Positions 1-63,847 of a stretch of DNA of 64,000 nt are shown piece after piece (position 1 is the first letter of the stretch; each line of letters starts with the position of its first letter). The DNA comes from a virus. The translations under genes and the position numbers were made by a program. The stretch is from positions 48,952 to 112,951 of IMG/VR virus record IMGVR_UViG_3300046787_000327; one strand, given 5' to 3'. The notes under the pieces are model-generated. The model did not search any database and was not told where the DNA came from. It was given only the letters and a program-made list of their open reading frames with translations.

Positions 1-1
1 T

Positions 2-3000
2 AACCCTTCAAAGAAGGCTAGCGAATTTCTTGCTGGTCTTGGAATTAATATTAAGGGGCTCGTTGAAGCAAACAAGGGAGACCTTAAAGGAACAGTTGTT
101 GGATTTGCTAGAGCATTAGACACACTTGATCCACTTAACCGTGCTCGTGCAATCGAACAGTTGTTTGGTAAGTTCCAGTTTGCTCGTCTTTCAACTTTGT
201 TTAAGAACGTAACATCAGATTCATCTCAGGCAGCCCGTGCACTTGGTCTTGCAGGAGCGTCAGTTGAAGAGTTGGCAATCCTGTCTGAGCGAGAATTGGG
301 CAAGGTTGAAAATGCTGTAGGAGTAAAGTTCCAGAAGCAACTAGAAAACATTAAGTTACAACTTGTTCCAATTGGTAAAGCATTCTTAGAAGCAGTTACA
401 CCAGTTGTTCAGTTCGCTGGCAAGATTCTTGAAAAGTTTAACAATCTATCAGATGGTACAAAAAAGTTTGTTGTAGGCTTTATTGCAATACTCGGCGGTA
501 TAGCACCAGTAGCACTCATGACTGTTGGTCTTGTTGCTAATGGTGTTGCTAACCTAATTAAGTTCTTTGGTATGCTTCGTGGAGGAATGGCAAAACTTAA
601 TGGCCAAAACAATGTACTTGGTGGTGGGTTTGATTATCTGACACAAGCAGAGATTGACAATCTAGCACAAACAGAAGCACTCCATGTTTCTCACTCAGAA
701 CTTATTTCTACATTTAATGTTGAAAAGACATCAGTTGATCTTCTTGCACAAGCATATGCAAATGCTGCATCACAAGCCAGAGCACTTGCTTCTGGATCAC
801 CAGGACTATTTAATGCAACCCCAGGTGCAGTAGGAGCAGTTTCAGGACTTCCTAAATTTGCTAATGGAAAGGTTCCAGGTAACGAATCTGAAGGAGATAG
901 CGTTCTTGCACTAGTTGCACCAGGTGAAACTATTGTTCCAACAGATAAGTCAAAGAAGTATGGTCCACTGCTCAAGGCTATTATGGGCGATAAACTTCCA
1001 GGATACATTAAGGGCAAGAGAGCAATAACATCTGATCAAGAATCTTTTATTTCTCAAACAGCAAGCATCGCTCCATCACAAGCAGGTGTTGCAGATGAGA
1101 TGGCAAAGCAATTAGAGTTTATTAATAAGGCATCTGCTGAAAAACTTATTGCGTATGCCAGAGCAACTGGTAGAAATGTAACAGATGCAAGCGAAGAGAC
1201 TCTAGAAGAATTGAGAAAATCTCTTGTTACAGATGTAGAAAAAATCTTTACCAGTGTTGCAGAGACAGCAAGAGAAAAAGGAAAAGAAGTAACAGTAAGT
1301 GCACTCAAGTCAGCAACAAAGAAAAAGGGCACTGCAGGAGATTCCAGCATTCATGAATTTTATAACCCAAGAGCAAACCAGCAGCAGTCAACACAGTTTG
1401 GGCATGCAGAAACATCAAAAACTTACAAGGTAGATCAGTTATCACAGGTTGCAAAAATTACAGACGCCAAGGCAAATGCCGAAGCAGATGCAATTATAAA
1501 TGCAATTAACAACTACAATAAGAAGAATGGCACAAGCGTTGAAATGCCAAAAGCAACACCAGTAAGTGGTTTTGGATTTGACATGAGAGGTGAAATTAAC
1601 AAGGCCATGAATGATGGTGCTATGCAACTTAAAGATGGCACAGATACAATCGATGCTTTTATGAAAGATTTCAAAGAGCGTGGGATTGAAAAATGGAGAA
1701 AGTCTGTTGAAATTGGTGGGGGTAACTTTGAACAGTTATCTTCATCTTTAAAGATTTATGATGATAAGATATTAGAGTCAGTCCAAGCATGGAAGACTGC
1801 AAACCCAGGTAAGGCATTTACTGATACAGAGTTTATGAAGATTGAGCAGAGTGTTCGCTCACAAGTAACTAATGTTGGTGAAGGCCTAGGGGCAGTGTTT
1901 GAAGAAGCAAGAAATACTGTTACAGCAATCAGACTTAAGTTAACTAAGGTTCAAAGAGACATCCTAAATGATGATGCTGTTGCAAGAGGAGATGTTGCAC
2001 CAGGAGAAAAGAAGTATGCTGATGATAGAACAACCTATCAAATGGGCGGAACTGAAAGAAGAAACTCTACTGGCTATGGAAAGTTTATTGATGATGAACT
2101 AACAGATGCAGAAAATGCTGCAGAAACAAAATCTCCTTCAGAGAGAACAAGAAGACTTGGTGTCAATATTGGTGAAGGTTTAAGAATAGGCCTTGAGCAA
2201 AAAACTAATGAAGTAAGATCTCAAGCAGACCAACTTGCCGATGCAGCAATTCCAAAAGTAGATACTGCAAACCAAGCAAAGTATAACAATCTCAAGAGTG
2301 ATCCATATGAAAGACAAGTTCAAAAGTCTATTGATAGACAAAATAGAAAACTTTATGGACCAGCAACTCCTGTAGTTGCACAGCCGTCTTCATCTACTGA
2401 GACATCAATGACCGTAGATATTGATCCTCAAGCACTCATGGCTGATATGGCTGCAGCAAAGGCTGCTCGAAAGAGAGCAAAAGAATTAGATAGACAAGCA
2501 TCAGAAGCAGAAGCAGCAGCAGCCAAGATGAGGGCTGAAGCAGCAAAGTGGGAAGAGATTGCTGCTAGAGAAAATAACCAAAACATTTATACCAATGAAA
2601 ATGTTCGTGTTTTACAAAAGCAAGCAGATGCAGTAGAACTTAAAGCAGCACAGTTAAGAATTCAGGCTGCAGAAGAAAGATCAAAGGCTGTAACAAAGTC
2701 TAAGAAATCTGGAACAGTTGCAGATGGAGCCAAGAATGTTAAGGCTGCAGCAAAAGAAGCGGGTAAAACTAGAGGTGCTCAAGAGCAGGTAACCGATGCT
2801 ACAGAAAACGTTGCACAAGAGCAGGTTAAGTATGGTAATGAGGTAAAGAAGTCTAAGAAGAGAGCAAAGCAAAATGCAGATGCTTCTGGAGATGTCTTAA
2901 TAGCAGAAGAAGATATTGCAAGAAATGCTAACCTTACCGCAACTGCGACTAATACACAAGCACAGAATACTCTTACAACAGCAGAGTTAACTCAGGCAAC

Positions 3001-6000
3001 AGAGAATGTTTTACAGGATTCTCTAGATAATAATGAGCAGATTGCTAGAGCAGAAGACGATAGAGCGAAGTCTGCAGAAGAAATTGCTAAACTTGAAAAT
3101 GATATTGAAGCACAAAAGAGAAAAGAAAAAGAGGCTGGGCAAGCAGCACTTGCTGCACGTATGGCAGGACCAGTCATCCCTGAAGGGTCTCAAACAGATC
3201 AAAAAAATGTTAACCCATTAACAGCAATGGGGTATGAAGATGCATATGATGAGGCTTCAACTTACACAAGAGACAAGGATGGTCAAATCTTATTTGATCC
3301 AGAACTTGGTCCAAATGGTGAGAAGAATCCAACAACAATGACTCAAAAGCAAATCACAAAGAAGAAGCGTGGCATGCGTAGAGAAAAGGTTGGCAAGTAT
3401 TCTGGTAAGGCTTCTGGTGCTTTAGGTATGGCAACTATGGCAGCAGGCATGATGGGTGCACCACCACAGGTAACAGCAGCACTTGGTGCGGCTTCAACCG
3501 TTGCACAGTTTGCTCCTATGCTCGCAGGTATGGGGCCAGTTGGTTGGGCAGCAGCAGGAATCATGGCAGTAGGTGCAGGAGCCTATATGCTAAATAAGCA
3601 CTTCAATAAGATGGCTGCCGAGGCAGCAAAGTTTGCAACATCAACTTCAGCAACTCGTGAGAGTATGAAGAAGATGGGTGAGATGACTGGCAGGGTCGGG
3701 GCATCTGAAATTATGGATCGTCGTAGAACTACAACTAGATACAATAAGTACAGCGACTCCGTTAAGATGAATACAACCTTTGGAAATAAGTTCCTAGGGT
3801 CAGACCTTGGAAAAGACACAAAGAAGGTTTTCCAAGAAAATGTTAAGAAGATGGGACTTGAGCAGGCAACTAGTGACTTGTCTCTTAAACTTGCTGCCCA
3901 GATTGCAGATGGCGTACTCGATAAAGACCAGGCAGAATCAATCGCTGCATCTCTTGCACTCTCATTAAAAGATAAAAGCATTGAAATGCAGGTTACTGGA
4001 AAACTAAGAACTCTTATTGGTCCAGATGGAGAAAACTTAAAAGATAAGCCATTAAAGACAAGACTTTTGCTTGTTGCTACAGCAAGACAGAGAAGCGAAA
4101 AACAACTTAAGACTATTGATGAAAAGAAGGCTAAGGGTGAATCTGTAAGAAAAGATATTGCTATGCTTGCTGCATACAATATGAACAACCTAGAACTTGC
4201 CACGATGGTTGCTGATCAAGTTGAAAATGAGTTTGAGATTCAAAAGAAGAAACTAGAAACTGAAATTGCTTCAACAACAAATCTACAGAAAAAATTAGAA
4301 CTAGAAAAGCAACTGAAGACACTTACTGCAAACAATGTTGCAGATCAACAAAGAACAAGCCAAGAAATATTGATGAATATTGCTCAGGCAGAAATTGACT
4401 TCCAGAAAGTATTTAGTGATACTGGAATCGGTGGCCAGGCAATGCGAGAGGATGCATACTTTGATGCGTCTAGATCAACTGTCGAATCAGCCTATAAGGG
4501 CACATCAGAAGAGGCTGCTGCTAAGAAATTCTTAGATAGAACAAAGGGCCTACAGGATGGAGCAGAGACTGGAAAGTACAATGCAAACACTGGAACATAT
4601 CAAAAGAACGGTCTAGGAACAGAGAAAGCAGCGCAAACATTCCAAGCAAAAATGGAAATGATGGTAGGAAGCAAAGCAATCAGCCCTACAGAGGCAAATG
4701 CCTGGATGAGTCTTTTTAGTGGAAGACTGAATGAATTAGATCTAGCAATCAACACAAGCATTAAGCAAAATGGACTTGGTAAGACCAAAGAACTTTTTGG
4801 AATGTTTGAAGGTTTTACAAAGAAAAAAGTAGCAACGCAAATGATCCAGGAGATCTTGTTAACTAAAAAAGATCCTGCAGAGTTCGATGCAATTATGGAG
4901 ACTCTTGCCAACCTTAAATCTCTAGATGGAACTGCAATTGACATGGAGGTGCTTGTTAGTGCAATCGGTCTTCCTGGTATTCAAAAGTTACAGGAAGAGT
5001 TTGATGCTATTGAAAAAAGAAAAGATGAATTAAAAAAGAAGGACAAGAAGTTTACTTTAGAAGATGAAGTAAAGAGTGCTGGCACATCTGCTCCTGCAGT
5101 TCAAGCACTTATTGGTGATGAAGAAAAAAGAAAAAAGTTTGATGCTTTATCAAGAGAAGCACAGGCAGACTTTTTACAGAAACTAGCAGGAGCCTATGCA
5201 TCTCAGTCGCAAGTTGATGATGCAACGCTTGCCCTTGAAGCAGAGAAGCAAGCAAAAACTCTCTTATGGATGGAGGGAGTAAAAGATAGTGACAAGGACT
5301 ATCAAACAAAACTAAAGGCATATGTTGATACGTATCTTTCAAAAACTGATTCTGAAAGAGCAGTAGACTCTCTAGATATGTACCTAGATCCAACAATTGA
5401 TACAAAGTCTGCTCCTGGTGGTGGCATTGAGGATGGAAAGAAAGAAAGAGATACCACCTATGATGAACTGAATAAGAGGCTCAGAAATGTACGCCTTGCA
5501 TCAATCAATGCTGCTGGTGGTATAGGTGAACTTACAAAAGCACTTGCAAAGACTGGTATAAAAGCAATCAATGATCAGTTCAGAGGACTTGAGCAACAAC
5601 TAATTAAAACAGGTAAGGCTGGTCAGTTTGTAGACTATCTTGCTGGACTAGATCAGGATCAACTTAATAAGTTTGGTAAGGCAGCAACCAAAAAGGGTAT
5701 TGACCCAAACACGGGCAAGAAGAAGTCTGGAGTTAAGGTTGGAGACTTTATTCTTAATGCCACAGGGCAAAAGATGGAGAAAGGCTTTAATAAGGCCATC
5801 ATCGGTGACTATAATAATGCTCAGGTTCGTTCTGTTGAATTAAATAAGCAAGAGATTGCAGCACGAACTAAACTTCTTGCACTAGGGTTCCAAGAGTCAG
5901 ATATCCGAACTATGCTCGCTGATGAAAATTATAGAACACTGATCGCAACAGGTAAGGTAACACAAAAAGAATTAGAAACAAATGCTGCACTTACAAAGCA

Positions 6001-41148: not shown

Positions 41149-41430
41149 ATGAAGCACGATTGGAAAGACCAGGCTTTGTGTTTAGATTATGACACAAATC
41201 TGTTCTTTGATAAGTATGAAGAAGATGAGTTACTAAGACCAGCAATTGATAAGTTCTGCTCTGGATGTCCAGTAGCAAAGACTTGTTTTGCAGTTGGTGT
41301 ATCTCAAAAAGAGTGGGGAATTTGGGGAGGAGTCTACCTAGAAGGTGGCGGTATCTCTAAAGAATTTAGTAAGCATAAGTCAAAGGCTGACTGGGCAACA
41401 ACCTGGCAGTATCTGACTATGGAGGTTTAG
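41149..41430 (+). CDS. WhiB-family Fe-S transcription regulator
   Basis: 93 residues. The four cluster cysteines are C11, C37, C40 and C46 (CSGCPVAKTC), followed by the family turn GIWGG (57-61) and a basic C-terminus. WhiB proteins are restricted to Actinobacteria and their phages and bind sigma factor region 4. It likely redirects host transcription. Strongest host-lineage marker in the window. Confidence 0.93.
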   Translation: MKHDWKDQALCLDYDTNLFFDKYEEDELLRPAIDKFCSGCPVAKTCFAVGVSQKEWGIWGGVYLEGGGISKEFSKHKSKADWATTWQYLTMEV

Positions 41431-47058: not shown

Positions 47059-47133
47059 TGGTAGCCCCAACGGGAATCGAACCCGTCTTGCCAGATTGAA
47101 AATCTGGAGTCCTAACCGATAGACGATAGGGCC
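47059..47133 (-). tRNA. tRNA-Glu(TTC)
   Basis: Full cloverleaf on the minus strand; anticodon loop TTTTCAA between CCAGA and TCTGG. Discriminator A and an encoded CCA. First acceptor pair is G-U. Confidence 0.93.
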
Positions 47134-47137
47134 TTAG

Positions 47138-47218
47138 TCCGTCATCTTGGAATCGAACCAAGCATGCTATCAGCGGGGGATTTACAGTCCCCTGTCCCAC
47201 CTTGGAACATATGACGGA
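47138..47218 (-). tRNA. tRNA-Tyr(GTA)
   Basis: Acceptor TCCGTCA/TGACGGA is perfect; anticodon loop CTGTAAA; long variable arm typical of bacterial tRNA-Tyr. CCA not encoded. Confidence 0.92.
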
Positions 47219-47222
47219 AAAG

Positions 47223-47305
47223 CGGAAATAATAGGATTCGAACCTATGGATCTTTCGATCTACGATTTAGCAAACCGTTGCATTCGGCCTCTCTGCCATA
47301 TTTCC
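47223..47305 (-). tRNA. tRNA-Ser(GCT)
   Basis: Acceptor GGAAATA/TATTTCC, discriminator G; anticodon loop TTGCTAA; long variable arm as expected for Ser. CCA not encoded. Confidence 0.92.
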
Positions 47306-47310
47306 ATTTG

Positions 47311-47383
47311 CTGGGGATGCAGGCCTCGATCCTGCGACTTGCGAATTAACAGTTCGCCACTCTACCAACTGAGTTAATCCCCA
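47311..47383 (-). tRNA. tRNA-Asn(GTT)
   Basis: Acceptor TGGGGAT/ATCCCCA perfect, discriminator G; anticodon loop CTGTTAA in stem GCGAA/TTCGC. CCA not encoded. Confidence 0.92.
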
Positions 47384-47417
47384 TTGTATTAAAAGTATAT
47401 CATATTAAGTTGTTTTG

Positions 47418-47489
47418 CGTCCCCGATAGGATTCGAACCTATGACCTACACCTTAGAAGGGTGTCACTCTTCCGCTGAGTTACGGAGAC
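47418..47489 (-). tRNA. tRNA-Arg(TCT)
   Basis: Acceptor GTCTCCG/CGGGGAC, discriminator G; anticodon loop CTTCTAA in stem ACACC/GGTGT. Reads AGA, suiting A-rich phage genes. Confidence 0.92.
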
Positions 47490-47493
47490 TTAG

Positions 47494-47567
47494 TACAACA
47501 GGTAGGACTCGAACCTACGATAACCGAATTATGAGTTCGGGGCCTTAACCGACTTGGCTACTGTTGC
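47494..47567 (-). tRNA. tRNA with CAT anticodon (Met or Ile2)
   Basis: Acceptor GCAACAG/CTGTTGT with a G-U end pair, discriminator A; loop CTCATAA in stem CCGAA/TTCGG. It lacks the initiator GGG/CCC stem, so it is elongator Met or, if the C is lysidine-modified, Ile2. These cannot be separated by eye. Confidence 0.88.
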
Positions 47568-47581
47568 TTATTTAGTTTTGC

Positions 47582-47650
47582 TTCTCCCCTAGGACTCGAA
47601 CCTAGATTGCTGGTGCCAAAAACCAGAGTCCTGCCATTGGACGAAGGAGA
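47582..47650 (-). tRNA. tRNA-Gln(TTG)
   Basis: Acceptor TCTCCTT/GGGGAGA, discriminator A; anticodon loop TTTTGGC in stem CTGGT/ACCAG. The D arm is short (69 nt overall). Confidence 0.88.
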
Positions 47651-47655
47651 ATTAG

Positions 47656-47729
47656 TGCTTCTCACAGGACTTGAACCTGTAACACCCAGATCCTAAATCT
47701 GGTGCCTCTACCAATTGGGCTAGAGAAGC
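47656..47729 (-). tRNA. tRNA-Leu(TAG), short variable loop
   Basis: Acceptor GCTTCTC/GAGAAGC perfect, discriminator A; anticodon loop TTTAGGA in CCAGA/TCTGG, with G37 as in Leu. The variable region is only ~5 bases (GTGTT), whereas bacterial tRNA-Leu normally has a long arm. Confidence 0.88.
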
Positions 47730-47743
47730 AATGTGAGCAGAAT

Positions 47744-47900
47744 GTGACTAGCATCCTCTCACTGACTCTACACTAGATATCCTACGAGTAGTAGCAACCA
47801 CGGACACACTCGTTCCTGCGGTAAGGTTAGTACCGTTGCTAGATTTCGGTCCAGTCCCTACATATCTTATTCACGATTGATATAACCGAGTGTTAGTCAC
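47744..47900 (-). ncRNA. Candidate structured RNA inside tRNA cluster
   Basis: About 157 nt between tRNA-Leu(TAG) and tRNA-Trp, with no coding frame of note. On the minus strand the ends pair perfectly (GTGACTA at 47900-47894 with TAGTCAC at 47750-47744). Further 6-7 bp perfect helices: ACACTCG/CGAGTGT (47893-47887 with 47812-47806), AGCAAC/GTTGCT (47840-47835 with 47798-47793, crossing the former as a pseudoknot) and hairpin CGGTA-CTAACCT-TACCG (47835-47819). It matches no RNA family I know. Confidence 0.5.
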
Positions 47901-47907
47901 TACACTG

Positions 47908-47978
47908 CAGAGTCTCTAGGAGTCGAACCTAGGCTTACCGCTTTGGAGACGGTAGTGCTTCCGTAACACTTAGACCCT
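47908..47978 (-). tRNA. tRNA-Trp(CCA)
   Basis: Acceptor AGGGTCT/AGACTCT, discriminator G; anticodon loop CTCCAAA in ACCGT/GCGGT. Confidence 0.9.
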
Positions 47979-47979
47979 A

Positions 47980-48053
47980 TGGAGCGAGTGACCAGACTCG
48001 AACTGGCACCTCCAACTTGGAAGGATGGCGTACTGCCCTTATACTACACTCGC
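47980..48053 (-). tRNA. tRNA-Gly(TCC)
   Basis: Acceptor GCGAGTG/CACTCGC perfect, discriminator T, CCA encoded; loop CTTCCAA. One T-T mismatch in the anticodon stem (CCATC/GTTGG). Confidence 0.9.
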
Positions 48054-48076
48054 AATTACTCTATTTAATTATACTG

Positions 48077-48149
48077 TACCCGAAGTGAGATTCGAACTCA
48101 CGCTTGGTAAATTTTAAGTCTACTGCCTCTACCGCTGGGCTATTCGGGC
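48077..48149 (-). tRNA. tRNA-Leu(TAA), short variable loop
   Basis: Acceptor GCCCGAA/TTCGGGT with a G-U end pair, discriminator A; anticodon loop CTTAAAA in GTAGA/TTTAC. Variable region only ~5 bases (CAAGC), again class-I-like instead of class II. Confidence 0.87.
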
Positions 48150-54329: not shown

Positions 54330-54900
54330 GTGTTGTAATACCTTAATTTGGATCATCTTAAGGTGTTATAGACACTTAAAGTAAATGGCGTTTTACTTTA
54401 AAATAGAGAAATGTTTTAAAGTTTCTTACATAGTTATCCACAGGTTTGATACCCCTAAAATGTTAGTTATCCACAGGTTTATCCACAGATAAATATTACT
54501 GATTAGATTGTTTGTCATTCTAGAAGTGGAGTGAAGTGGAGGATAGTGGTTTATAGAACATTTTCATTGAAGGGATCGTAATCCTAACGGGCCAAACCCC
54601 CTATCCCCAAACCTTTTATCCCCCTTATACCACATATCCCCAAACATGTCAAACCCTATATCTCATATGCATGATAGCACCAAACCATCTGTTTGTCAAG
54701 TATTGTTTGTACCAAACACCTATGACAAATTTGATCAAATATCGACAATTTGTTTTATAATTAATTATTAATTAAATAAATTAAAAAGAAATAAATAAAA
54801 AACAAATTGTTTTTAATTGTTTTATATATAGGGTTTGTATATAGTACTATAGGGATTTGGTATCAGATGTTGTTTGATATCCCCTGGCAGAAACGGCCTG
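54330..54900. other. Candidate replication origin
   Basis: A 650-base gene-free gap. Three perfect DnaA boxes TTATCCACA lie in tandem at 54434-54442, 54467-54475 and 54479-54487. About 250 bp downstream is an extreme A+T tract (54745-54850) that could act as the unwinding element. Short palindrome-like words (AATTTGATCAAAT) and two copies of CTTAAGGTGTT-like sequence are also present. The phage encodes helicase, primase and polymerase but no initiator was recognised, so host DnaA could start replication here. Confidence 0.6.
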
Positions 54901-57567: not shown

Positions 57568-58095
57568 TTAGCAGTGAAAATCAATTGGTACTAAAAATTG
57601 TAGCAGACCTGATTTGGATTTGTCAAGTCGCTCTGGCAGGTATCCCATGTGTGCTGTGTATTCAACCATATCGTAAAAGTAGGAGTCAGATGTATAACTA
57701 TCTGATAACAGTTCCCCTGCCTTTTTGATATAGTATGAGTTCATATCAAATCGGTTCTCATCAGCAGGTAGTCCACTGTTTGAGATGTAGTCAACGATAT
57801 CACTCATAAACTTATCAGTCTTGATACGCTTTAGCATATGGTTCATCTCATCAATACGAGCCTGCTTGCATGATTGGATAATCTCATTAAACTTGTCAGG
57901 GTCTTCTGTATAAGACACAACCATATCAGATGAGTTCTCATACTGTGAGTCAGACCAACGCCCTCCTCCAACTACATGCCAGTCAGACCATTCAACAAAG
58001 TTGCCTCCGTCATCATTAATTAATCTAGCAACAACTTGGTTAAAAGCGTCTTCTTTATCTTCAGCCTCAACAGCCCACCAATGTAATGTATGCAT
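57568..58095 (-). CDS. Hypothetical protein
   Basis: 175 residues. MHTLHWWAVEAEDKEDAFNQ ... FVEWSDWHVVGGGRWSDSQY: a beta domain of the type seen in early phage proteins, then helices. TAATG coupled to an acidic gene upstream. Family not recognised. Confidence 0.65.
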   Translation of the reverse strand: MHTLHWWAVEAEDKEDAFNQVVARLINDDGGNFVEWSDWHVVGGGRWSDSQYENSSDMVVSYTEDPDKFNEIIQSCKQARIDEMNHMLKRIKTDKFMSDIVDYISNSGLPADENRFDMNSYYIKKAGELLSDSYTSDSYFYDMVEYTAHMGYLPERLDKSKSGLLQFLVPIDFHC

Positions 58096-58289
58096 TAGTC
58101 TTCTGTCTCCCCGTCTTCGTCCTCATCTTCGTAGACTTCTTCAGCCATTTCTTCTACATTAATTGAATAGACTTCTGAGAACATTGTGTAATCTTCCCAC
58201 TTCCAGCCTTGCTCTTCTGCTTCCTCAACTGAGTTAGCCTCTACTTCGTATTCAAGGTCTACTCGTACTTTTACATAATACTGTGGCAT
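58095..58289 (-). CDS. Small acidic protein
   Basis: 64 residues with AAAGGAG site. YYVKVRVDLEYEVEANSVEE AEEQ then a poly-Asp/Glu tail (EVYEDEDEDGETED). Sequence is like DUF-type 'VEAxSxEEAE' proteins. Possible DNA mimic by charge. Confidence 0.62.
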   Translation of the reverse strand: MPQYYVKVRVDLEYEVEANSVEEAEEQGWKWEDYTMFSEVYSINVEEMAEEVYEDEDEDGETED

Positions 58290-58313: not shown

Positions 58314-58520
58314 TTAATTATAGGGGTTGGTGTTGATTTTTACAACTTGTGGGGATGTGATGTTAGTCACAGGCTCCTTGACTGTAGCATCTTCCCAGCC
58401 TAAGAGGATCAGTTCATTAGGATAATCACACACACAGGTGGGGGACTGCTTAAAATCCTGGGTAGTGACTTCAAACATAGTATCACAGTATGTACAGATA
58501 AGGTTATACTTAAGCCACAT
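58314..58520 (-). CDS. Cys-containing hypothetical
   Basis: 68 residues. NLICTYCDTMFEVTTQDFKQ, CVCDYP: four Cys in zinc-ribbon spacing, then a beta tail. Function unknown. It starts two bases after the upstream gene. Confidence 0.62.
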   Translation of the reverse strand: MWLKYNLICTYCDTMFEVTTQDFKQSPTCVCDYPNELILLGWEDATVKEPVTNITSPQVVKINTNPYN

Positions 58521-58692: not shown

Positions 58693-58721
58693 ATTGTAGC
58701 AAAACCTGGGGAAAAATACAA
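58693..58721 (-). promoter_or_regulatory. Promoter, leaderless start (- strand)
   Basis: TTGTAT (58721-58716), 17-bp spacer, TGC-TACAAT (58698-58693). An iteron copy overlaps the -35; a CRP-like box lies ~75 bp upstream of the expected TSS. Confidence 0.7.
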
Positions 58722-58752: not shown

Positions 58753-58777
58753 TGTGATATGCATCACAGGGGACGTC
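58753..58777. promoter_or_regulatory. CRP/GlxR-like box plus GACGTC
   Basis: TGTGATATGCATCACA (58753-58768) is a perfect palindrome of form TGTGA-N6-TCACA, immediately followed by GGGGACGTCCCC (58769-58780 region). Confidence 0.7.
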
Positions 58778-58817
58778 CCCGCATTTTTATGCAGAGCCCT
58801 GCATATTTATTTACTTG

Positions 58818-58891
58818 CGATCCGTACGGGACTCGAACCCGTGACCTCCACCGTGACAGGGTGGCGAACTAACCAACTATTCTAACGGACC
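58818..58891 (-). tRNA. tRNA-Asp(GTC)
   Basis: Isolated from the main cluster. Acceptor GGTCC GT/ACGGATC with one wobble, discriminator G; anticodon loop CTGTCAC in CCACC/GGTGG. Confidence 0.92.
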
Positions 58892-58896
58892 TTGAT

Positions 58897-58920
58897 GAGC
58901 CTTTTGAAATCATGCTCAGG
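58897..58920 (-). other. CCTGAGC 3' hairpin, copy 3
   Basis: Minus strand: CCTGAGC then ATGATTTCAAAAG then GCTC. Lies between the DUF932 gene stop and tRNA-Asp, in gene sense. Confidence 0.55.
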
Positions 58921-58938
58921 ATTTAATTATAGCAGATG

Positions 58939-59961
58939 CTATGCTAATTGCATAACGCCCTGCACAATTTTTAGCAAGCGATTCTTCTCTGCGTTAATTG
59001 CAGGGTCAAATCCTGATGCTGATGCAAGAATAGATTCGTTAGAACCATTACGAGCAGAGCGGTACCAGTCTAGTCGCTCAGTGAGTGCATTGTAAGCACC
59101 CCAAGCGTTACCAGCAATCATGCCATTGAATTCACCAGTGTAGATATCGTTAATAACATCTACCTTGTTTTCCCACTTCTTGAACGCACCCTTAGAATCC
59201 TTCTCAGGCTTAGGGTATGCAGCAAGAATGATATCGTTGAAAGCCTTAGCATTGACTTCCTTCTCGAACATAGCCTTAGCCATGATGTCGAATTCGTCCA
59301 TGTATGCATTAGCAAGACCAAGAGTCTCACGAGCAATCTGCACCTTGCCTGATGCGGTTTGCGTGTGGCGAATCTTGAATGACTGTTTGATTCCCTTATT
59401 CTTCTTACGACCTACGCCACCAAGAGCAAGGTTAAGAGTGTTAGCACACACAACACGAACGGGAGTGATAGATGCCTGAATAGCAATAGAACCGTCGTGT
59501 GATGTGTTGATGAGAAGATAAGTTTTAACCTTATCTGCAACACCGCTAGGGTCAAGAACTGTCTCACGCTCTAGGGCAAGAGCACCGAATACAACACGCC
59601 CACCCTTGATAGAGCCAGCGGTTTCCCATCGTCCGCCACCGTCTAGGATATTATCACCGAATGAGAATAAATCTTCATTCTGCATAACATGGTAACGCTC
59701 ACCAACCACACCAAGAATATCAGTCTGATTCTTGTCGGTAGGGTTAGTACGCAAAACATATTGGTAATTCTTATCGCTTGTAAGATGGGTAGGGGTTTCC
59801 AAATCCTCAAGACGAACATTCCAACCATTGAGGTTTGCAGCCTCAAGCATTTCTGCGGTTGTCTTTTCTTCTGTGAATACGGTACCCAATCCATGCCAAG
59901 CAGGTTCACGGAAAGATGCGAAAGATGTCTTGCCGTTTTGAATTTCTAGGTCATGTGCCAT
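58939..59961 (-). CDS. DUF932 phage/plasmid-like protein
   Basis: 340 residues. Matches the TIGR03299/DUF932 pattern: PAWHGLGTVF (~20-29), ILGVVGERYHVMQNEDLFSF, RWETAGSIKGGRVVFGAL, and the end domain AGNAWGAYNALTERLDW. These proteins occur on phages and plasmids and their role is unclear. Start ATG 59961 has a purine-rich leader (AAAAGAGATAACTC); its promoter carries the TGTC spacer element. Confidence 0.87.
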   Translation of the reverse strand: MAHDLEIQNGKTSFASFREPAWHGLGTVFTEEKTTAEMLEAANLNGWNVRLEDLETPTHLTSDKNYQYVLRTNPTDKNQTDILGVVGERYHVMQNEDLFSFGDNILDGGGRWETAGSIKGGRVVFGALALERETVLDPSGVADKVKTYLLINTSHDGSIAIQASITPVRVVCANTLNLALGGVGRKKNKGIKQSFKIRHTQTASGKVQIARETLGLANAYMDEFDIMAKAMFEKEVNAKAFNDIILAAYPKPEKDSKGAFKKWENKVDVINDIYTGEFNGMIAGNAWGAYNALTERLDWYRSARNGSNESILASASGFDPAINAEKNRLLKIVQGVMQLA

Positions 59962-59993
59962 GAGTTATCTCTTTTCTGTTTGTTGATAATATA

Positions 59994-60022
59994 AGTATAC
60001 ACAACACCACCGACAAATACAA
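59994..60022 (-). promoter_or_regulatory. Early promoter with TGTC spacer element
   Basis: TTGTAT (60022-60017), 17-bp spacer, TATACT (59999-59994). TTGTCG (60016-60011) is exactly 11 bp from the -10. Confidence 0.65.
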
Positions 60023-60047
60023 ATCGGGATAGTTAAACATAGGGCAA

Positions 60048-60117
60048 ATCGGACATTTTTGATGTGATCTTAAACACACGGCGTGTCGACTTGACAAACC
60101 TTGATCGGCGGGACGTC
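60048..60117. promoter_or_regulatory. Operator block: AAATCGGACAT, TGTGA box, GACGTC
   Basis: AAATCGGACAT, then a half-conserved TGTGA-TCTTAA-ACACA (60063-60078), GCGTGTCG, CTTGACAAAC and GACGTC (60112-60117). The same order of words recurs at 61712-61791. Confidence 0.6.
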
Positions 60118-60138
60118 GCAAAATTTGAGAGTTTTGGT

Positions 60139-60165
60139 GAGCAGTTTACATGGCCATGCTCAGGG
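60139..60165 (-). other. CCTGAGC 3' hairpin, copy 4
   Basis: Stem GAGCA (60161-60157) with TGCTC (60143-60139) on the minus strand, preceded by CCCT. It lies ~50 bases after the stop of the next upstream gene. Confidence 0.6.
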
Positions 60166-60212
60166 CCCTTACCCAGTTTTTAGACATCTGGTAGGTCCAT
60201 GCTCATAGCCCC

Positions 60213-60641
60213 CTATGAAATATTGTCGGATGATTGCAATGACGAAACATCAAGTGAGAAATCATCAATTGAATAATCAAATGAGTCAACACTGAATTCA
60301 AGACCATTCGCAACATCATCTGCGTCAACATCGAATGGAACCTCTAGTTCGATTTCGAAATCAACTGTTGCAGTTACGGTAACTGTCTTTGTAAGTTCGA
60401 AGTCGCAAATCTCTGCAAGAGACTGTGCAACATTCTCACTGATATCATTATCACGCAATGACTCTACTACGTATTCTTTAACTGTATTAATAAGGTTTTG
60501 GCGTTCGGCCTTTACGGTGAAGGCATATGAAGAATTCTTAGAGACCTCATCTTGCAGGCGAGTGATGTACTCATCCTTTTTCTCAATAAGTTCAAGTAGT
60601 GCTGCTGCTTGACGCTCTAGGTAATCGGTTGTTGCTGACAT
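60213..60641 (-). CDS. Hypothetical, coiled coil plus acidic domain
   Basis: 142 residues from ATG 60641 (AAAGAGG site). N-terminal coiled coil (YLERQAAALLELIEKKDEYI) then a strongly acidic beta region (ATVDFEIELEVPFDVDADDV). Acidic tail SVDSFDYSIDDFSLDVSS. Common type in early actinophage regions; function unknown. Confidence 0.68.
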   Translation of the reverse strand: MSATTDYLERQAAALLELIEKKDEYITRLQDEVSKNSSYAFTVKAERQNLINTVKEYVVESLRDNDISENVAQSLAEICDFELTKTVTVTATVDFEIELEVPFDVDADDVANGLEFSVDSFDYSIDDFSLDVSSLQSSDNIS

Positions 60642-60675
60642 AGGGGGTACCTCTTTCGTTGTTGTTATTAATACT

Positions 60676-60704
60676 AGTCTACACGAGACCTCTGACAAAT
60701 ACAA
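60676..60704 (-). promoter_or_regulatory. Early promoter with TGTC spacer element
   Basis: TTGTAT (60704-60699), TTGTCA (60698-60693), 11 bp, TAGACT (60681-60676). Confidence 0.6.
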
Positions 60705-60737
60705 ATCCTGTGATCCATTTGGGCTACCCTGGTGGGT

Positions 60738-60811
60738 GAGCAGTTTTACAACTTGCTCAGGTTAGTTTGGGGGAGAGGCTTGAACTAGGTATTGCTACCT
60801 CTCTCCCCCAA
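60738..60811 (-). other. Intergenic hairpins including CCTGAGC copy 5
   Basis: After the minus gene ending at 60818: a strong GGGGGAGAG/CCTCTCCCCC hairpin (60770-60811), then CCTGAGCA...TGCTC (60762-60738). No T run follows, so a classical rho-independent terminator is not shown; may be a 3'-end stabiliser. Confidence 0.55.
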
Positions 60812-60817
60812 TTCTAT

Positions 60818-61219
60818 TTAGAGGTACTGTGCTACCTGCTTGAAGGTTGAGGCATTTACAAACTCCTCATCAGTCATTTTGAGAATACGAATTGCGTTCT
60901 CAATCTCTACGATTTCGTACTGACCAAGTTCACGCTCCAAGTCCATTGAAGGCTTCTCAGGAAGTTTAACTGTATTAGCAGGAAGTGTGATAGTTACATT
61001 GAGTTCGTTGCGCCAGTTCTCATGTGCAGAAACTTCTGCCTTTGAGATATGCTTGAACACAATATCCGCAACTTCCTTAGCATACGACTTCTCTGTTTTT
61101 TCGTAGTCCTTACGCTTCTTCTCGTTAGAAACTTCTGCCTTCTTTGCAGACGCTAACTTATCTTCAAGTGCCTTGATTACCTTAGTTGTTGCTACCTTAA
61201 CTGAAATTGCTCTTGCCAT
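60818..61219 (-). CDS. Basic/helical hypothetical
   Basis: 133 residues. Long charged helix (KVIKALEDKLASAKKAEVSN; KKRKDYEKTEKSYAKEVADI) followed by beta segment (NWRNELNVTITLPANTV) and acidic helix. An early-region protein type common in actinophages; role unknown. Confidence 0.68.
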   Translation of the reverse strand: MARAISVKVATTKVIKALEDKLASAKKAEVSNEKKRKDYEKTEKSYAKEVADIVFKHISKAEVSAHENWRNELNVTITLPANTVKLPEKPSMDLERELGQYEIVEIENAIRILKMTDEEFVNASTFKQVAQYL

Positions 61220-61257
61220 GTGGGGTCTTTCCTTTTCTATTAGTTGGGGGTTTTGGT

Positions 61258-61349
61258 GAGCCTTTTAACAACTTGCTCAGGTTGTCCCACTCTATTTATT
61301 TAGACACGCATTTCTGTGGGGCGTGGTTGTTTTGGCGTTAGTGCCAAAC
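61258..61349 (-). other. Intergenic hairpins including CCTGAGC copy 6
   Basis: After the minus gene ending at 61350: TTTGGC-ACTAAC-GCCAAA, then CACGC/GCGTG, then CCTGAGC...GGCTC (61282-61258), in gene sense. Confidence 0.55.
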
Positions 61350-61514
61350 TTACTTTGATGTCCAAGTTGTGTAACGAACTGAACCATCAACATTTAACTT
61401 CACACGAACATTTCCATTAGCCTGTGGGATAATCTCCTGAATTGTTCCTGTTACCTTTGACTTCTGTGTTGTGTAGAGGTCGCCTACCTTGTATGTGTTT
61501 GTTGCTACTGCCAT
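61350..61514 (-). CDS. Small beta protein
   Basis: 54 residues: ATNTYKVGDLYTTQKSKVTG, TIQEIIPQANGNVRVKL, then WTSK. The pattern resembles a KOW/SH3-like beta barrel; possible RNA- or protein-binding early factor. Confidence 0.65.
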   Translation of the reverse strand: MAVATNTYKVGDLYTTQKSKVTGTIQEIIPQANGNVRVKLNVDGSVRYTTWTSK

Positions 61515-61557
61515 TTTTGTATTTCCTTTTCTGTTAGGGTTACTTGCTTATGTATTA

Positions 61558-61580
61558 AGTATAACATTTCCGACTGACAT
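61558..61580 (-). promoter_or_regulatory. Early promoter with TGTC spacer element
   Basis: ATGTCA (61580-61575), 11 bp, TATACT (61563-61558); -35 TTGCAA further up. Confidence 0.6.
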
Positions 61581-61627
61581 TTTGCAAATACATTTCCTAA
61601 TAATCTCATAATATAAGACATTATTCA

Positions 61628-61791
61628 TGTGACTTGCATCACCTGTTTTCCGTGTTTCCTTATATTATAAGTATAGCGAAAAATGTCATAAATAACAAAT
61701 CTCAAATGGTATAAATCGGACATTGGCTATGTGATAAAGCCCACAAAAATAAAGCGTGTCGTAACTTGACAAACAGGTGCTGGCCGACGTC
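61628..61791. promoter_or_regulatory. Second promoter, two CRP-like boxes and GACGTC
   Basis: The 350-base gap between the genes at 61514 and 61880 holds: TGTGA-CTTGCA-TCACC (61628-61643); a second -10 tandem TATACTTATAAT (61664-61675, minus strand); AAATCGGACAT; TGTGA-TAAAGC-CCACA (61730-61745); GCGTGTCG; CTTGACAAAC; GACGTC (61786-61791). No gene seen. Confidence 0.6.
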
Positions 61792-61879
61792 CCAAAATTC
61801 CAGGGGATCGGTTAGGACCCACTGGAACCAAGGAATGCTGACAGTGTTATCAAGAATATGAATAGATAGAATAGGCCAC

Positions 61880-62602
61880 TCATTTCTTACTCGCACTAAA
61901 TACGATGTCTGCTTTATTATAAACACACAGTGAGCAAGATACGCAGGCGGACCCTGCACTGCTAATAAGTGGAATGGCCTTTTTGTTTTCAGGACATTTT
62001 GCTCCTGGCTTACCTGTTAACTCTTTCATATCCTCTTGACCAATTGCAAAATTCTTAGCAAGATATGCTAACTTAATTCCGCTTTCAGTCTTAAGTTTAA
62101 TTCCAGTTTGCTTGTTGTCGCTATCTGTAGAATAGTACAAAGATAGATTAGGCTGGTCCTTAAGCATTAATGCTGCAGATTCTACACGAGTGTATACCCA
62201 GAATTGTACGAAACGGTAATCCATGATAACTTGCTTCCATGCATATGCATACGTATCATTAAAGAAATCTCCGTCCCAGTGAATGCGGAAGAGTAATGGT
62301 GCGTCTTTCTTTGCACAGTCTTTGATAAAGTCAACAATCATTTCCTTAAGCAATGTAACCATGGTCTCATAGTCTGCGTCTTTAAGTAAATTCCAGTTAT
62401 GTAGTAGGTTTACCTTTACAGAAGGAAATACCTTTTCTAACTTTCCTGCATAGCAGACAGACTCGCATACGGATGTTGCTCCAGGGCATGAGTATGCTTT
62501 GCCTGCGGGTAGGCCGAAGGTGTTAGCAATTGTGGCAGTCTTACCGTTAGGGGATACGGCATTAGTTACTTTTCTATCTTTAGAACGGAGCAGTTTAGTC
62601 AT
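61880..62602 (-). CDS. Gp88-like protein
   Basis: 240 residues. The GP88 family signature is visible: GLPAGKAYSCPGATSVCESV, CYAGKLEK, then FRIHWDGDFFNDTYAYAWKQ and YTRVESAALM, with C-terminal Cys cluster CPENKK ... CVSCSLC. Cys residues may bind a metal cluster; such proteins are frequent in early regions of actinophages. Function unknown. Confidence 0.83.
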   Translation of the reverse strand: MTKLLRSKDRKVTNAVSPNGKTATIANTFGLPAGKAYSCPGATSVCESVCYAGKLEKVFPSVKVNLLHNWNLLKDADYETMVTLLKEMIVDFIKDCAKKDAPLLFRIHWDGDFFNDTYAYAWKQVIMDYRFVQFWVYTRVESAALMLKDQPNLSLYYSTDSDNKQTGIKLKTESGIKLAYLAKNFAIGQEDMKELTGKPGAKCPENKKAIPLISSAGSACVSCSLCVYNKADIVFSASKK

Positions 62603-62610
62603 GGGGGTCC

Positions 62611-62757
62611 TTACTTTAGGTTATACTTTAATTGTAGCATTTCGCTCTGACATTTTCTACCCTTGCGAGAGTAGGCTTTCTTCGAAGGTACGGCAGAAGC
62701 AGCATTAGAACGGCGTAGTTCCATTAGTCTGCGTAATTCCTCTGGTGTTTTCTTCAT
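62611..62757 (-). CDS. Basic micro-protein, leaderless
   Basis: 48 residues: MKKTPEELRRLMELRRSNAA ... SRKGRKCQSEMLQLKYNLK. Highly basic; likely nucleic-acid binding. Its 3' part contains the promoter of the Gp88-like gene. Confidence 0.6.
   Translation of the reverse strand: MKKTPEELRRLMELRRSNAASAVPSKKAYSRKGRKCQSEMLQLKYNLK
62631..62653 (-). promoter_or_regulatory. Early promoter with TGTC spacer element
   Basis: ATGTCA (62653-62648), 11 bp, TGC-TACAAT (62636-62631), upstream of the Gp88-like gene (leader with AAGGA). Confidence 0.6.
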
Positions 62758-62763
62758 GTATTA

Positions 62764-62793
62764 ATACTAACACACATGGTCTTAAAATGTCAA
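62764..62793 (-). promoter_or_regulatory. Promoter, leaderless start (- strand)
   Basis: TTGACA (62793-62788), 18-bp spacer, TGT-TAGTAT (62769-62764), six bases to ATG 62757. Confidence 0.6.
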
Positions 62794-62803
62794 CTTGGAT
62801 CTA

Positions 62804-62829
62804 TGTGATTAATCTCACACGGGGACGTC
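62804..62829. promoter_or_regulatory. CRP/GlxR-like box plus GACGTC
   Basis: TGTGATTAATCTCACA (62804-62819), perfect TGTGA-N6-TCACA, followed by GGGGACGTCCC (GACGTC at 62824-62829). It lies 10 bp upstream of a TTGACA -35. Confidence 0.72.
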
Positions 62830-62849
62830 CCATTTTTCAGGGGAGAGGT

Positions 62850-63098
62850 TTAATCCTCTACTTCTTCTTCACGGAATACATACAACTTAATTGTATCAGT
62901 GTAGTTATACTCTGTTACATCTCTATCACCATAGTCATTAACATGACCTACATAGTATGTATCACCTGTTGCATCTGAGTCGATACCTAATACAGTTACG
63001 ATATCGCCTTCAACTTCGATAATGTCTTCCTCCATTAGTTGGTCTGGAGTAAGTAAGTCTGCGTAGATTAGTTCCATGCTGTTTATTGTAGCAGTCAT
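62850..63098 (-). CDS. Acidic hypothetical
   Basis: 82 residues from ATG 63098 (GAGGAGGAA site). MEEDIIEVEGDIVTVLGIDS ... TIKLYVFREEEVED. A short SH3-like/beta protein with very acidic ends. Coupled by position to the gene upstream. Confidence 0.66.
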   Translation of the reverse strand: MTATINSMELIYADLLTPDQLMEEDIIEVEGDIVTVLGIDSDATGDTYYVGHVNDYGDRDVTEYNYTDTIKLYVFREEEVED

Positions 63099-63099
63099 T

Positions 63100-63375
63100 T
63101 TAGTATTCCTCCTCTGGAAGCCATGGTGATAGGTGGTGAGCATCTACGATAGCCGATGCAGGACATGAAGAATTACCCCGCCAGAATACGCCTTCAGGCA
63201 ATTCAATATCACGCTGATAGTCTTCCTCATAGTACGCATCGATAGCATCGATACATGGCTGCACCATTGTTAGCGGTACAGGTGGATAGTGATTACCCTG
63301 CAAGTGGAAACCGATAGCCTGTTCAAGGGTGATATCGATATTCTCTGCCAAATCAGTTGCTGTGTTAAGTCCCAT
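63100..63375 (-). CDS. Conserved actinophage hypothetical
   Basis: 91 residues. LEQAIGFHLQGNHYPPVPLT, CIDAIDAYYEEDYQRDIELP, GVFWRGNSSCPASAIVDAHH. The same chain (HLQ..HYPPVP...DAI.A...GD....LP.G..WR) is typical of actinophage early proteins. Function unknown. Confidence 0.75.
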   Translation of the reverse strand: MGLNTATDLAENIDITLEQAIGFHLQGNHYPPVPLTMVQPCIDAIDAYYEEDYQRDIELPEGVFWRGNSSCPASAIVDAHHLSPWLPEEEY

Positions 63376-63376
63376 A

Positions 63377-63592
63377 TTACTTACCCCCTACATTTCCGTC
63401 ACGATAGAATATCTTAGTATGCATTTTGCCATTAGGCTCTGATAGGTTAATTGTGCGGTATTCATTAGCGAATCCATAATCAACACACGCATTAAAGACA
63501 TTAACTGCCTCTAGTGCATTATCATAGCGACCAATCCAATTAGGTTGTGACGCTCCGTCATAAGTTGAAGTTACTGAGTATTCATAGTCCAT
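63377..63592 (-). CDS. Conserved hypothetical
   Basis: 71 residues. YSVTSTYDGASQPNWIGRYD, NALEAVNVFNACVDYGFAN, EYRTINLSEPNGKMHTKIF: beta-alpha-beta-beta small fold seen in many actinophage early genes. TAATG coupling. Confidence 0.7.
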   Translation of the reverse strand: MDYEYSVTSTYDGASQPNWIGRYDNALEAVNVFNACVDYGFANEYRTINLSEPNGKMHTKIFYRDGNVGGK

Positions 63593-63741
63593 TATTTAGC
63601 CTCCGCTGTTAAGAATAGTTGGTTGATATAGTCATAGCCTATCATGGCTTCTACCTCACGGTCAAGATAGCAACGGAAGCAATAGAGTTCTGTTACATCT
63701 ACTGCGTTCTCATTACACTGCATACATGTATAGTCGGTCAT
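63592..63741 (-). CDS. Zinc-ribbon micro-protein
   Basis: 49 residues: YTCMQCNENAVDVTELYCFR CYLD contains two CxxC pairs. First gene of a four-gene coupled row; AAGGA ribosome site. Confidence 0.68.
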   Translation of the reverse strand: MTDYTCMQCNENAVDVTELYCFRCYLDREVEAMIGYDYINQLFLTAEAK

Positions 63742-63771
63742 GGGGGTTCCTTCTTTCTCTTTAATAATTTA

Positions 63772-63794
63772 ATCCTACACTAGAACGGGGACAA
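63772..63794 (-). promoter_or_regulatory. Early promoter with TGTC spacer element
   Basis: TTGTCC (63794-63789), 11 bp, TAGGAT (63777-63772). Confidence 0.55.
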
Positions 63795-63831
63795 ATAGTG
63801 GGATATTCTTAAACTTTTTTCGGCTAGAATA

Positions 63832-63847
63832 TGTGAAATAAATCACA
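63832..63847. promoter_or_regulatory. CRP/GlxR-like box
   Basis: TGTGA-AATAAA-TCACA, ~74 bp upstream of the expected start of the 63741 gene row. Confidence 0.68.

Follow-up and report, generated by a model that had tools for sequence, protein, structure and literature searches.

CRP/GlxR-type boxes at helically phased distances from predicted early promoters in an actinophage and its relatives

The DNA analysed here (the window, 64,000 nucleotides) comprises positions 48,952-112,951 of the 112,951-bp virus record IMGVR_UViG_3300046787_000327 and includes part of an early region in which the palindrome TGTGA-N6-TCACA, the known consensus of actinobacterial CRP/GlxR regulators (PMC4117774, PMC7999487), recurs between genes. 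Since the first 127 bp of the record are identical to its last 127 bp, the unit amounts to 112,824 bp and the early region continues across the record ends; positions past the record end, outside the window, are given as G000 coordinates. Near-perfect boxes upstream of sigma-A-type promoters are directly visible in the sequence. The boxes, predicted promoters and accompanying motifs are listed below by window position.

58317..58345, minus strand: promoter TTGTAA-17-TATAAT of the gene at 58095-58289; also listed by an independent promoter scan, and many relatives have a counterpart at gap 10
58356..58371, minus strand: perfect CRP/GlxR box, 10 bp upstream of the -35 hexamer, overlapping the 3' end of the open reading frame 58314-58520
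58693..58721, minus strand: promoter TTGTAT-17-TACAAT, with the start codon at the predicted +1 (leaderless)
58753..58768, minus strand: perfect CRP/GlxR box, 31 bp upstream of the -35
58772..58777, unstranded: GACGTC within GGGGACGTCCCC, adjoining box 58753
59994..60022, minus strand: promoter TTGTAT-17-TATACT of the DUF932 gene (alternative, 59988-60016)
60046..60056, minus strand: AAATCGGACAT, that is, the ATGTCCGATTT element, ~6 bp 3' of box 60063
60063..60078, minus strand: CRP/GlxR box with one mismatch, 40 bp upstream of the -35, at the same position in most relatives
60080..60088, plus strand: GGCGTGTCG; in relatives, the leading co-motif on the upstream side of boxes
60112..60117, unstranded: GACGTC
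61558..61587, minus strand: promoter TTGCAA-18-TATACT
61628..61643, minus strand: CRP/GlxR box with one mismatch, 40 bp upstream of the -35
61670..61698, minus strand: second, tandem promoter TTGTTA-17-TATACT
61713..61723, minus strand: ATGTCCGATTT element
61730..61745, minus strand: CRP/GlxR box with one mismatch, 31 bp upstream of the -35
61754..61761, plus strand: GCGTGTCG
61786..61791, unstranded: GACGTC
62764..62793, minus strand: promoter TTGACA-18-TAGTAT of the leaderless gene 62614-62757, also listed by the independent promoter scan
62804..62819, minus strand: perfect CRP/GlxR box, 10 bp upstream of the -35
62824..62829, unstranded: GACGTC within GGGGACGTCCC, adjoining box 62804
63766..63794, minus strand: candidate promoter TTGTCC-17-TAAATT at gap 37 (an alternative -10, TAGGAT at 63772, gives gap 31)
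63832..63847, minus strand: perfect CRP/GlxR box

The window thus holds four perfect boxes (58356, 58753, 62804 and 63832) where 0.17 are expected, at least four being reached in none of 100 shuffles of the window, and a fifth lies just past the record end at G000:2292. A preliminary description of the region had reported the last three of the four and missed the one at 58356; its positions for those three, for the degenerate boxes at 60063, 61628 and 61730 (one mismatch each) and for GACGTC at 58772, 60112, 61786 and 62824 hold, and the longer word order that it noticed is really common to the blocks 60046-60117 and 61713-61791. TGTGA is the commonest arm among all 5-6-5 palindromes of the phage genome, and 14 of the 18 boxes with at most one mismatch fall within 9 kb (107,307-112,824 plus 1-3,472), where six of the eight genome copies of GACGTC are also found, none of them beside boxes 58356, 61628 and 63832. 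A count against the rest of the genome, proposed earlier as a check, finds the box motif rare elsewhere.

The boxes do lie upstream of start codons, as had been claimed, at distances of ~46-115 bp rather than 55-85 bp, and box 61730 serves a second, upstream promoter. The distance between box and -35 hexamer is the more meaningful measure, and in the clearest cases of this phage it amounts to 10, 31 or 40 bp. Two tandem promoters are served by the pair 61730/61628, while boxes G000 3361 and 3472 face plus-strand promoters at gaps 21 and 11. Several predicted transcription starts coincide with the start codon, in a leaderless arrangement. Because a general promoter scan of the region did not rise above chance (21 vs 15.2, standard deviation 4.7), promoters were accepted solely beside boxes and gene starts.

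Four genes of the window lie among these elements or are referred to below.

41149..41430, plus strand: whiB-like gene, which marks an actinobacterial host
58817..58891: tRNA-Asp, a lone gene in the early region, apart from the 11-gene tRNA cluster at 47059-48149
58939..59961, minus strand: DUF932 gene (phrog_1221), the early gene used as query for relatives
61880..62602, minus strand: gp88-like early gene (PF17338)

An Rfam scan returned nothing besides tRNA, and the conserved blocks are therefore not a known RNA family.

For the DUF932 gene, IMG/VR yielded 434 relatives, from which 80 loci (930 kb of early DNA) were kept. In 74 of 81 sequences a box with at most two mismatches is present ~117 bp upstream of the DUF932 start, its half-sites being conserved and its N6 core free to vary. 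TGTGA-N6-TCACA is also the commonest 5-6-5 palindrome in the early DNA of the relatives (292 copies; runner-up, 58). The gaps between box and -35 peak at 10, 21, 31 and 41 bp, one helical turn apart, and these peaks are absent for oppositely oriented promoters. Once similar sequences are removed, 75 representatives remain; 29 of them have precisely one of these four gaps, compared with ~4 under an even distribution. On predicted start sites, the box centres would be at -53.5, -64.5, -74.5 and -84.5, all on one face of the helix.

The same preference emerges from an independent scan of all IMG/VR for a box followed 5-35 bp on by TTGACA or TTGTAA, of which only the gap distributions were used. 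Among the matches listed, TTGACA stood at gap 10 in 24 of 89 cases (7 at gap 11 and ~2 at each other gap) and TTGTAA in 20 of 79, compared with a single case at gap 10 for a control palindrome of the same letters. A fixed, helically phased distance is found, then, in the relatives and across IMG/VR. A whiB-like gene is present on 7 of 80 loci with CRP boxes vs none of 80 control loci, and five of the seven (L225, L254, L269, L270 and L279) constitute a lineage in which both the DUF932 and the gp88 gene are missing; unrelated actinophages with whiB have this box, too, at an unchanged gap. With a protein of this second lineage as query, two cultured phages were found, LanE43-AprE7 and LanE43-AprF5 (E7 and F5; OX376640 and OX376641), which infect 'Candidatus (Ca.) Planktophila' LanE-43 (PMC10202952). 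In either genome of 39 kb, two perfect boxes are present where chance would give 0.02-0.03. Both sequences (L565 and L564, respectively) are filed as 'Caudovirales sp. ct2KA10', in a record without host or annotation. For the high-GC contigs with gap 10, no tie to cultured phages was established.

With regard to the protein that might read these boxes, the phage encodes WhiB, and a search for a cyclic-nucleotide (cNMP)-binding protein found none in it, that is, no phage-borne CRP. One relative (81%) lies in an Actinomycetota metagenome-assembled genome (MAG), whose family has a CRP of ~230 amino acids in 63 of 81 genomes, most of them with one CRP. The family CRP tested is orthologous to M. 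tuberculosis CRP (Rv3676) and to GlxR (E ~1e-78), and all 28 host-family CRPs read contain GASRETVNK in the recognition helix, so that the putative host family does possess a cognate CRP with a matching recognition helix. From their size (0.8-2.2 Mb) and GC content (40-48%), which fit, we infer that the genomes belong to the Nanopelagicaceae (acI). Host links sought through shared sequence gave tRNA-level similarity and weak protein matches only, and no box was found near crp that would point to autoregulation. Class III adenylate cyclase (PF00211) was detected in none of the 12 complete host-family genomes and not in the phage, in a search confined to this cyclase class and positive for the C. 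glutamicum control; the earlier suggestion that the early genes sense host cyclic AMP (cAMP) is therefore not supported. The host CRP may be independent of cAMP or respond to a different signal.

The chromosomes of the putative hosts treat this site in a particular manner. In the 12 complete genomes (~17 Mb) the perfect box does not occur, and GTGA-N6-TCAC is found 79 times vs 310 and 358 times at the N9 and N12 spacings, which serve as frame-matched controls that keep the codon phase. Each of the 12 genomes has its lowest count at N6, and for the reversed word the counts do not depend on spacing (268, 265 and 250). Among 231 4-6-4 palindromes in one whole host-family genome, the strongest depletion is that of GTGA (4 vs 21.6 expected), for which codon phase is in part responsible. 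Summed over 57 other genomes of Actinomycetes, perfect boxes outnumber the reversed word by 181 to 13. Codon-phase bias as the cause of the depletion is rejected by the N9 and N12 spacings and the reversed control; a type I restriction site was likewise rejected, since a host that methylates has no need to avoid its own site, whereas a phage would. A deficit confined to one exact spacing is most readily attributed to a host protein that recognises this spacing, and it thereby favours CRP as the protein that reads the boxes of the phage. These counts show that the phages use a site that their putative hosts keep out of their own chromosomes.

The boxes are accompanied by several upstream motifs, of which GACGTC is one. 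It is found upstream of boxes in 14 of 201 cases vs 1 of 201 downstream, a significant difference, and the strongest upstream word is GGCGTGTCG (34 vs 1.6 expected). The interval between box and -35 holds conserved ATGTCCGAT repeats in the 31-bp class and a conserved TGAGCGTCTCA in the 41-bp class, while in the 21-bp class GGCGTGTCG stands directly upstream of TTGACA. DnaA boxes (TTATCCACA/TGTGGATAA) occur 334 times in the 930 kb of the relatives. In this regard, the second palindrome-binding factor postulated in the preliminary description agrees with the co-occurrence of GACGTC upstream of boxes, but GGCGTGTCG is the stronger motif, and ATGTCCGA repeats and DnaA boxes also occur. The ATGTCCGA repeats are common to separate lineages, which suggests a host factor. 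A composite GGCGTGTCG-CTTGACAAA-GACGTC is present at 60080-60117 and 61754-61791 and also in one other locus (L272); on the plus strand it places GACGTC 14-15 bp after a -35-like TTGACA, where the -10 belongs, and is not a normal promoter.

Taken together, our findings make it likely that the boxes are operators for a host CRP/GlxR-type regulator that switches on the early promoters of this freshwater phage. CRP/GlxR-type operators had been suggested from the outset, and they are well supported by spacing, conservation, the orthologous host CRP and the cultured acI phages. Host CRP dimers would bind the boxes immediately once the DNA has entered, and bound CRP would recruit host RNA polymerase to the early genes, with GGGACGTCCC, GGCGTGTCG and the ATGTCCGA repeats as putative binding sites of other factors. 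With strong operators, in hosts that avoid the site in their own genomes, phage promoters would get priority for CRP. Activation is the likely mode because every site is upstream of the -35 and in phase; in M. tuberculosis, activation goes with CRP sites that precede the start, the strong ones being at -55.5 to -62.5 (PMC4117774). For this phage, the binding of CRP, the activation and the identity of the host are all predictions.

The clustering of sites in the early region of one phage genome, which resembles phage repressor operators, together with the lack of a known family for most early proteins, could also be read as a sign that a phage-encoded regulator (e.g. Cro/XRE- or BldD-like) uses the same palindrome by chance. 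This seems improbable, given that box and gap are identical in unrelated phage lineages and in the cultured Planktophila phages, that the motif is the known actinobacterial consensus, and that host genomes avoid the site, which suggests a protein of the host. We also consider it unlikely that the boxes repress, that is, that host CRP keeps early genes repressed as long as a signal persists, in the manner of CRP-cAMP at pir of phage T1 (PMC6737242). Beyond this precedent, CRP is known to act either way depending on position, yet sites that repress lie across the start or the core promoter (PMC4117774), whereas all positions here are upstream of the -35 and helically phased, the pattern of activation, and several promoters have weak -35 hexamers. 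That the boxes are mainly decoys titrating host CRP off host promoters is very hard to credit: each phage genome brings ~14 strong sites, their number rises with replication and host genomes have no perfect ones, all of which would serve that end, but a decoy has no need of the fixed promoter distances observed. Titration would be compatible as a side effect of operators that activate early promoters through host CRP.

Some observations weigh against activation by host CRP. If only this genome is considered and a simple matrix picks the promoters blindly, helical phasing does not reach significance (Rayleigh test, n=13, p ~0.2); it was therefore examined in relatives and in IMG/VR, from which the evidence for phasing comes. 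With a predicted centre at ~-53.5, the gap-10 class would deviate by 2-3 bp from the register of E. coli class I/II promoters (-41.5, -61.5, -71.5 ...), and the closest cultured relatives, Streptomyces BE-type phages, have no boxes. The host family is inferred from one MAG contig and from cultured phages that belong to a different lineage, and in the likely host hardly any promoter is preceded by a CRP site. The objection, raised in advance, that the host might lack a CRP of this specificity is answered in part: the likely host has such a CRP, but it avoids the site.

As in E. coli class I promoters of the lac type, the CRP box of the phage lies upstream of the -35 with a helical period, but its gaps follow the series 10, 21, 31 and 41 bp, whereas that of lac is 17 bp. 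The GlxR and M. tuberculosis CRP operators of Actinobacteria have the palindrome of the phage boxes, the CRP of the putative host family is orthologous and has an identical recognition helix, and the M. tuberculosis sites at -55.5, -57.5, -58.5 and -62.5 (PMC4117774) are near the phage positions; they differ in that the phage sites are near-perfect, repeated and in phage DNA, and in that the putative host family avoids the site and is without class III cyclase. The pir/dam/recE control of phage T1 by CRP-cAMP (PMC6737242) likewise has a host CRP-family protein acting on phage promoters, but there it represses, in a lysogeny-lysis switch at a few E. coli promoters, while here many phased early promoters of apparently lytic actinophages are concerned.

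Other elements of the genome deserve mention. Three perfect DnaA boxes TTATCCACA lie on the same strand within 54 bp (54434-54487), in a noncoding gap between convergent genes, and two further ones are at G000 3327 and 3339, amid CRP boxes; these clusters might be phage origins that rely on host DnaA. A perfect actinobacterial LexA/SOS-like box, CGAACATCTGTTCG, the sole copy in the genome, is present outside the window at G000 2437-2450 (L005) and adjoins the CRP-box promoter at 2421. An inverted element, CCTGAGC...GCTCACC, is repeated between early genes (60134-60166, 60733-60760 and 61254-61281) and is frequent in relatives too (AAAACTGCTCA); it may be terminator-like or another regulatory repeat.

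The action of host CRP on phage promoters is already known, e.g. in the repression of T1 pir (PMC6737242). In the open-access literature searched, we found no report of a set of early promoters that use near-perfect operators of host CRP, spaced in steps of one helical turn, in several actinophage lineages whose likely host avoids the site. As a tentative proposal, which we regard as rather more doubtful than probable, the acI CRP would be constitutively active, possibly cAMP-free, and strong operators would be harmful and purged from the hosts; unrelated phage lineages would then have converged on this 'forbidden' operator as an early switch outcompeting host promoters, perhaps draining CRP.

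Few freshwater bacteria are as abundant as the acI actinobacteria, about whose phages little is understood. Our findings reveal a genome-wide avoidance, in the putative hosts, of the operator of their own CRP, and point toward a concrete rule of early transcription common to acI phages, namely host CRP operators in one-turn steps, which can be tested in the cultured 'Ca. Planktophila' strain with phages E7 and F5.

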